Part shown: piece after piece, positions 45,016 through 46,085 of the stretch | Numbering within the stretch: position 1 is the stretch's first letter | How the letters are laid out: the number at the start of each line of letters is the position of its first letter | DNA from: Gammaproteobacteria bacterium | GTDB lineage: Bacteria > Gemmatimonadota > Gemmatimonadetes > Longimicrobiales > Gaopeijiaceae | Length of the DNA: 64,000 nucleotides | Direction of reading: 5' to 3' | Assembly: GCA_028819075.1 (NCBI GenBank) | Contig: JAPPMM010000028.1 | Location: 124,001 to 188,000, forward strand | Made by a program: the position numbers and the translations under genes | The notes under the pieces: model-generated | The model's input: only the letters and a program-made list of their open reading frames with translations | What the model was told of the DNA's origin: nothing | Database searches by the model: none

Positions 45016-46058
45016 CCGCGGGCGCATCACCCACCCGGCGTTACGTGGGCTGGCGCTGCAGGCTCTACCCGAGCCCAGCACAGGATGCGGCGCTGCTCCG
45101 GTGCAGGAACGGCCTGCGCGAACTCGCGAACGCCCTGCTCGCCAACTCCCAGCTCAGGTACGGGGAGACCGGACGCCGCCTGTCGCTGGCCGAGCTGCGC
45201 GCCTTTGCGCGCGAGTGGAAGCGGGAGCCGGAGCACCGGGCATTCCCCGCCAGCGCGACCTACCGCGTCGCCAGCGATCTCGACCGCGCCTTCCGCACCT
45301 GGTTCAGCAAGCCGGGAAGGCGCAGGCGCAGGGGGTTTCCCCAGATCAAGGGCATCGGACGAGAGCCCGGCATCTACTTCAGCAACCAGGGCATCTGTTT
45401 CGAGGGCAACCGCGTGTGGCTGCCGAAATTCGGCTCGGTGCGCTGGAAGGGCGGGAGCCTCCCGCGGGGCAGGCTCGCGGGGCCTCCCGGACGCAAGACC
45501 CTTGGCCTGCTCTCCGGGCGGGCCTGGCTGGATGCGGGCAACCGGTGGATGCTCTCGTGCCTGTTCGAGTGCGCGCCGCTTACCCCCGTCGAACCGAGCA
45601 CGGAGAAGGCAGCGGTCCGTCAGAACGGCAAAGAGATCAGGGTGACGGTCGACGGGGAGGCCGTCCAGGTGATTCGCGAGAGCAGGGTGCTCAGGAAGGC
45701 GAGACGCCGCCTGGCGAGGCTCGAGCGGCGGCTGGAGCGATGCGCGTTCGGGTCCGAAGGCCGCAAGCGCGCCCTGGCCCGCATGCGCAACCAGGCGCGG
45801 AAGGTCAGGAACCACCAGGAGGACCTGCAGCACAAGACCACGACCGGCGTCGTGCACGACGCCCGCGAGATCGAAGTAGAGGGCGCGAGCAGCGAACTGC
45901 TGCGCCAGCTCGAATACAAGGCGGAGTGGCACGGCCGCCAACTGAAGGTACGGCGAGGCCCGCCGAAACCGGGGACTGGCAAGCCCCGACGCGCGCCGAG
46001 ACCGGGGAGCCGGTCGCTGAAACGCGAATCGCGGACGCGAAGGCCGAAAGCCCTGTAG
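45012..46058 (+). CDS. Nuclease-dead TnpB-like (IS605 OrfB-derived) protein, copy A
   Basis: 348 residues from ATG 45012, which overlaps the regulator stop. TnpB landmarks in order: RLYPSPAQDAALLRC (N-terminus), LDRAFRTWFSKPGRRRRRGFPQIKG, VWLPKFGSVRWKGG, RRRLARLERRLER helix, HKTTTGVV and RQLEYKAEWHGR. RuvC-I Asp aligns with R203 (AAVRQ). E290 (EVEG) may match the RuvC-II Glu, but the usual ~20-residue insert after it is gone. The protein ends in a basic tail without the zinc finger or RuvC-III Asp. So it should not cut DNA but may keep RNA and DNA binding, like TldR repressors. There is no tnpA nearby. It probably regulates the neighbouring surface genes. Confidence 0.8.
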   Translation: MTAGASPTRRYVGWRCRLYPSPAQDAALLRCRNGLRELANALLANSQLRYGETGRRLSLAELRAFAREWKREPEHRAFPASATYRVASDLDRAFRTWFSKPGRRRRRGFPQIKGIGREPGIYFSNQGICFEGNRVWLPKFGSVRWKGGSLPRGRLAGPPGRKTLGLLSGRAWLDAGNRWMLSCLFECAPLTPVEPSTEKAAVRQNGKEIRVTVDGEAVQVIRESRVLRKARRRLARLERRLERCAFGSEGRKRALARMRNQARKVRNHQEDLQHKTTTGVVHDAREIEVEGASSELLRQLEYKAEWHGRQLKVRRGPPKPGTGKPRRAPRPGSRSLKRESRTRRPKAL

Positions 46059-46085
46059 CCGTCTGCGAAGGCCGGAACGAATCAG
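45879..46085 (+). ncRNA. Candidate omega-RNA-like scaffold at the 3' end of the TnpB-like gene, copy A
   Basis: Canonical TnpB guide RNAs are made from the 3' end of the gene and beyond. Here 198 of 207 bases match copy B by hand alignment, including 97 consecutive bases with no silent change, and conservation continues 27 nt past the stop, whereas the preceding gene part differs often. Stems such as CGGGG/CCCCG and GACCGG/CCGGTC are kept while their loops vary (GGAG against GAAG). The scaffold would end near GGAACGAATCAG, with any guide beginning about 46086. No RNA evidence exists in the sequence. Confidence 0.5.

Follow-up and report, generated by a model that had tools for sequence, protein, structure and literature searches.

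The stretch described here, positions 45879-46085 of a window of 64,000 nucleotides (the whole stretch of DNA that was analyzed, on contig JAPPMM010000028.1), covers the 3' end of a gene for a TnpB-like protein and is very probably the scaffold of an omega-RNA-type RNA that overlaps this gene end and stops at TCAG. We propose that this scaffold belongs with a domesticated, nuclease-dead TnpB and with a guided regulation that the two would exert, a reading that we hold, taken as a whole, with a probability of about 0.7.

The window carries two copies of the stretch, copy A at the above positions and copy B (Table 1). The original prediction had counted 198 identical bases out of 207 between them, with a run of 97 unchanged bases; the count was exact on recount, the run lies at 45879-45975 and is the longest, and the differences are at 45976, 45977, 45983, 45997, 46007, 46016, 46017, 46052 and 46059. 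Upstream of the stretch, the same two gene copies are identical at 736 of 867 bases (84.9%), a rate at which at least 198 matches out of 207 have a binomial P of 7e-7, and the best other non-overlapping 207-column segment of the A/B block has 191 identical bases. Since the larger repeats that hold both copies are only 78-85% identical, the stretch exceeds its own surroundings. The many silent differences that had been noticed in the preceding coding sequence were found again in a larger set: among 16 close copies, third-position identity is 53-87% along the 5' part of the gene versus 91-96% inside the stretch, and the mean pairwise difference is 26.4% at upstream third positions versus 5.2% in the stretch. 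Between orthologues in other genomes, the stretch has diverged by 0.5-1% and third positions by 12-29%. Across species, the conserved core starts near 45884-45892. As predicted, conservation passes the stop codon of gene A (TAG, 46056-46058) and reaches GGAACGAATCAG (46074-46085); every close copy stops being conserved after the same base, 27 nt beyond the usual stop, and past this end the DNA differs between lineages. The RNA of more distant copies terminates in GACTCA, that of the long forms probably in TCA. In the genome of the window, full copies are present on C28 (n = 2) and on C50, C10 carries diverged ones, and C50 also has a gene-less one. Of 394 genomes in the class, 31 contain relatives; the closest belong mostly to the genus of the window and to one other genus of the same family, and additional loci (L-numbers) were taken from a species collection.

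A structure of 32 pairs (64 paired positions) was written from sequence comparison, in which helices H4 and H5 (46032-46073) cross as written. Among 14 copies linked to an open reading frame (ORF), namely copy A and 13 others without indels, 16 positions vary, of which only one is paired and changes from G-C to G-U (hypergeometric P 5e-4, only indicative because the structure was derived from the same sequences). None of the nine A-B differences affects a paired position (P 0.003): three fall in the loop of H2 and, as had been claimed, the one at 46007 lies in the loop of the hairpin GACCGG(GGAG/GAAG)CCGGTC. Every pair of six helices is retained in 24 of the 24 ORF-linked scaffolds examined, a count that leans towards the structure since its patterns fix some bases. 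On alignment A2, 99.2% of the cells pair versus 16-42% when slid, most of these pairs being invariant, a case in which the shuffle control is uninformative. Compensatory differences between the clades occur in two helices: H4 is CGGACG/CGTCTG in the first clade but CGAAC/GTTCG in the second, and H2 is rebuilt. Furthermore, a 1-nt deletion inside the stretch in L019 and L020 shifts the frame, with a stop at residue 335 rather than 348, and the RNA is kept. Covariance modelling with homologues, which the original prediction had suggested as a check, places the RNA beside most relatives (37 matches of model R1, a 141-nt RNA, in 16 of 121 genomes of the family, mostly beside the protein); covariation is modest and most pairs never vary. 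As far as sequence comparison goes, the predicted overlapping omega-RNA-type scaffold is supported and is the best account of the stretch, because constraint follows paired positions and not the reading frame, the end past the stop codon is fixed and the 141-nt RNA recurs; selection acting on the RNA structure is supported in the same way.

The gene-less copy on C50 was considered as a trans-acting RNA and rejected: it differs from copy A at four of the 141 positions, all paired, and all four pairs are broken, for which reason it reads as a decaying duplicate. In addition, the terminal 24 nt of the scaffold form a tandem repeat at L089:2850-2893 and L090:3052-3095, giving two possible guide positions, and in L017, L019 and L020 a segment of 30-31 nt from the scaffold core recurs about 20-30 nt past the scaffold end.

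The evidence on the protein supports a domesticated TnpB devoid of the RuvC-I aspartate and of the RuvC-III/zinc-finger end. TnpB structures are its top matches (8h1j, E 1e-36 by sequence; E 1.3e-19 by fold) and its nearest natural solved relatives in both searches, and it matches NCBIfam guided_TnpB with E 1.8e-25 and 90 bits, below the 100-bit cut-off. Under the usual motif names (RuvC-I, lid, zinc finger, RuvC-III), none of the 17 aligned proteins has the RuvC-I aspartate, and 15 of them have also lost the lid, zinc finger and RuvC-III. In two longer relatives (L033:2702 and L084:8392), the lid and zinc finger persist, GVALG stands where the RuvC-I motif would be, and scaffold-like RNAs occur at the corresponding position; judged from their sequences, the relatives form a series from dead full-length to truncated TnpB. 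The predicted model is confident up to about residue 310, its predicted local distance difference test score (pLDDT) falls below 50 over residues 317-348, and the view that the last ~32 residues are a mere read-through of the RNA gene is supported. No relatives were found in the viral contigs searched.

The pair formed by the TnpB-like gene and the RNA recurs in related genomes beside an operon of giant repeat proteins, which we call adhesins from their domains, and this recurrence is well supported: an adhesin-operon gene lies at most 3.8 kb away in 33 of the 39 listed copies (rows that are partly redundant, the same place having been entered from two collections). The six copies without an operon gene are L009, L010, L016, L089 and L090, on edge or short contigs, and L096, which is degraded. 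Overall, this work suggests that a transposon nuclease became an RNA-using regulator, resident next to genes for giant surface proteins. TldRs are TnpB-like nuclease-dead repressors, that is, TnpB-derived RNA-guided transcription factors, which are associated with fliC or csrA and regulate flagellin. In a TldR-like manner, the TnpB-like protein would bind the scaffold RNA, the bases after TCAG would serve as guide, and the RNA-protein complex would bind DNA and regulate transcription, probably of surface-protein operons. We consider the chances about even that the complex is an RNA-guided DNA-binding regulator; that it controls the neighbouring or a paralogous adhesin operon is a more tentative proposal. 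It is quite unlikely, finally, that truncated dead TnpBs, interchangeable scaffolds and freely changing guides make up a locally replaceable RNA-guided switch choosing among paralogous giant adhesin operons, in which scaffold duplications and conversions would exchange guides.

Several results weigh against the proposed system. Concerning the RNA, every change in the four helices that could be counted on A2 is one-sided and preserves pairing, two-sided changes are few and confined to two helices and essentially to one clade split, the single-sequence minimum free energy is ordinary (z -0.16), and no Rfam 15 family was matched beyond sub-threshold chance matches. Concerning the guide, conservation just past the scaffold is no higher than in more distant DNA, and the C50 orthologues carry different bases there. 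A search of the genome with 16-mers of the guides of A, C50, B and C10b, allowing up to two mismatches, gave 12, 6, 4 and 7 hits, respectively (self included), versus 7, 1, 6 and 8 for the reversed-guide control; guide matches are not enriched in adhesin upstream regions with exact or wobble matching, and no target is common to orthologous guides in the pairs of genomes compared. Concerning the neighbourhood, seven genomes of the family that have neither scaffold nor protein among the matches listed still match the first adhesin gene, and in the genome of the window itself, the C55 operon (L151), a closely related adhesin operon whose first gene is 95% identical at the N-terminus, has no TnpB-like gene or scaffold nearby.

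Guide prefixes of at least 8 nt gave no match beyond chance against the collected loci. Two target leads are not believed: the guide of the gene-less copy matches 16 nt exactly inside a quinohemoprotein amine dehydrogenase gene (L116:4103; Markov expectation 0.003, uncorrected for how many guides were tried), and guide A matches 14 nt where an unnamed ORF ends (L117:4154; expectation 0.08). With no target beyond chance found and guide bases that are not conserved, the guided step is therefore inferred. It could also be that the RNA-protein complex is conserved and that the bases after the scaffold no longer guide, the RNA being a structural cofactor, a decoy or an autoregulator, for instance a 3' end element that acts on the messenger carrying it. 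This alternative, which we regard as unlikely, would fit the lack of a detected target, the guide position that is not conserved and is unrelated between orthologous loci, and the luxR 3' end that occupies this position in L014 and L022. However, all clades share a sharp scaffold end at TCA, as expected of a guide boundary. Moreover, known TldRs repress with 6-nt guides according to PMC13418256; guides of this length are undetectable by these searches, so that a short guide with an unknown target-adjacent motif would escape them.

The original prediction had named a recent conversion tract as the main alternative to an RNA scaffold, and part of this stands. Over 266 bases (45821-46086), no difference separates copy A from the C50 paralogue, although upstream the two disagree at 27.7% of third positions; the scaffold of A groups with the C50 type and its gene does not, and a duplicated scaffold flanks about 2 kb at the C50 locus. 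Scaffolds thus appear to have been exchanged between paralogues, because the rest of the gene of A is as distant from C50 as from most others. However, this is a different pair from A and B, and conversion leaves the cross-species pattern unexplained: between C50 and L008 or L009 in other genomes, the scaffold differs by 0.5% and third positions by 12-16%. Furthermore, variation avoids stems, and conversion has no preference for loops. A recent tract with nothing else behind the identity is very improbable, and conversion as its sole cause is already contradicted; it adds to the constraint on the scaffold and does not replace it, since the contrast is also seen between orthologues from other genomes.

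Constraint on the C-terminus of the protein has next to no chance of accounting for the conservation: the first third of the stretch does encode a conserved TnpB motif (LEYKAEW), but over most of the scaffold third positions are conserved to the same degree as first and second ones, the frame is shifted in L019 and L020, conservation extends beyond the stop and residues 317-348 are predicted to be disordered, so that such constraint past residue ~315 is already contradicted. Least probable of all is an ordinary mobile IS200/IS605-type element with an active TnpB, which the TnpB-family protein and the RNA end TCA(G) recall, as IS605 right ends terminate in a TCA(G)-like sequence; it conflicts with the losses of the RuvC-I aspartate and RuvC-III, with constant neighbours in many loci and with the absence of any Y1 transposase match (PF01797) in the genome, where IS607-type serine recombinases were not searched for.

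In its way of working, the locus would resemble a TldR most. The features apparently shared are TnpB homology, an inactivated RuvC, a scaffold retained beside the gene and stable linkage to a non-transposon partner gene for a surface structure. Frameshifted loci may be another one: PMC13418256 describes for Oscillibacter a locus with a frameshift that may supply RNA in trans. Unlike TldRs, the present locus belongs to another lineage, its partner is a giant adhesin operon with a sigma54-type promoter, a helix-turn-helix gene overlaps the start of the TnpB-like gene, RuvC-III and the zinc finger are wholly deleted, and no target was identified in the guide searches made. In ISDra2, the RNA scaffold overlaps the end of the TnpB gene. 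The present locus shares this arrangement, and its protein shares with ISDra2 TnpB and relatives (8h1j, 8bf8, 8exa) the fold and most of the sequence up to the deleted end, but it has no catalytic site, no transposase and a resident position. The dead relative dCas12f is paired with a sigma factor. With its guide RNA (9n9c), it belongs to the same fold family and came fifth in the fold search; in contrast, Cas12f is CRISPR-derived, and the partner found here is weakly helix-turn-helix and matches no sigma family in a domain search. In the literature searched, we found no description of this TnpB-like family and did not meet an adhesin operon as partner of a TnpB-derived protein. The locus looks like a separate instance in which an RNA-guided nuclease of a transposon has become a resident protein that uses RNA, and intermediates (dead full-length, then truncated) still exist; it is also a clean example of RNA constraint legible directly in the third positions of a protein gene.

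Table 1. Features of the window around the TnpB-like gene and its putative RNA
Feature	Position	Strand	Remarks
Third operon gene	30864-35066		fn3
Second operon gene	35063-39016		LRR, Big_2
First gene of divergent giant surface-protein operon	38980..43704	-	CarboxypepD_reg/SdrD_B repeats
Predicted sigma54-type promoter of adhesin operon	43774..43788	-	TGGCAC-N5-TTGC; B copy at 58974-58988 (-)
Helix-turn-helix partner gene	44236..45015	+	encodes a 259-aa protein; 4-base overlap with TnpB-like start; its family matches helix-turn-helix models weakly (HTH_18 and others)
TnpB-like nuclease-dead protein, 348 aa	45012..46058	+	residues 317-348 scaffold-coded, modelled disordered
Probable omega-RNA-type scaffold, conserved core	45884..46085	+	overlaps TnpB-like 3' end, extends 27 nt beyond stop
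Helix H1	45947..45970	+	GGT/ACC and CGGCG/CGCCG
Variable hairpin H2	45971..45987	+	GGGG/CCCC here; longer, differently built stem in second clade
Hairpin H3	46000..46015	+	GACCGG-GGAG-CCGGTC, picked out by the original prediction
Helix H4	46032-46037 / 46060-46065	+	CGGACG / CGTCTG
Helix H5	46042-46045 / 46070-46073	+	GGCC / GGCC
Would-be guide position	46086..46105	+	GGGATGCGAAGGAGCGTCAG; differs between lineages, no target found
PAS/LuxR-type regulator	46102..47253	-	convergent with TnpB-like gene
GAF/PAS hybrid histidine kinase	47380..49803	+	receiver and output domains; belongs to recurring neighbourhood
Second scaffold copy B	60717..60923	+	TnpB-like gene of copy B at 59850-60896

The genes around copy A form a module (adhesin operon, helix-turn-helix gene, TnpB-like gene, luxR, histidine kinase) that is duplicated and diverged in the window (30.8-47.3 kb and 49.8-62.2 kb), and the PAS/LuxR regulator and the hybrid histidine kinase round it off in many loci. 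A sigma54-type promoter, TGGCA(C/T)-N5-TTGC, precedes the first operon gene in 17 of the 17 loci tested (0.1% in shuffled sequences). The predicted AlphaFold model of the 259-aa helix-turn-helix partner is poor (pLDDT 50.8). At L084:8078-10004, a dead full-length TnpB relative stands just before an adhesin operon, with one scaffold-like RNA upstream and two downstream.
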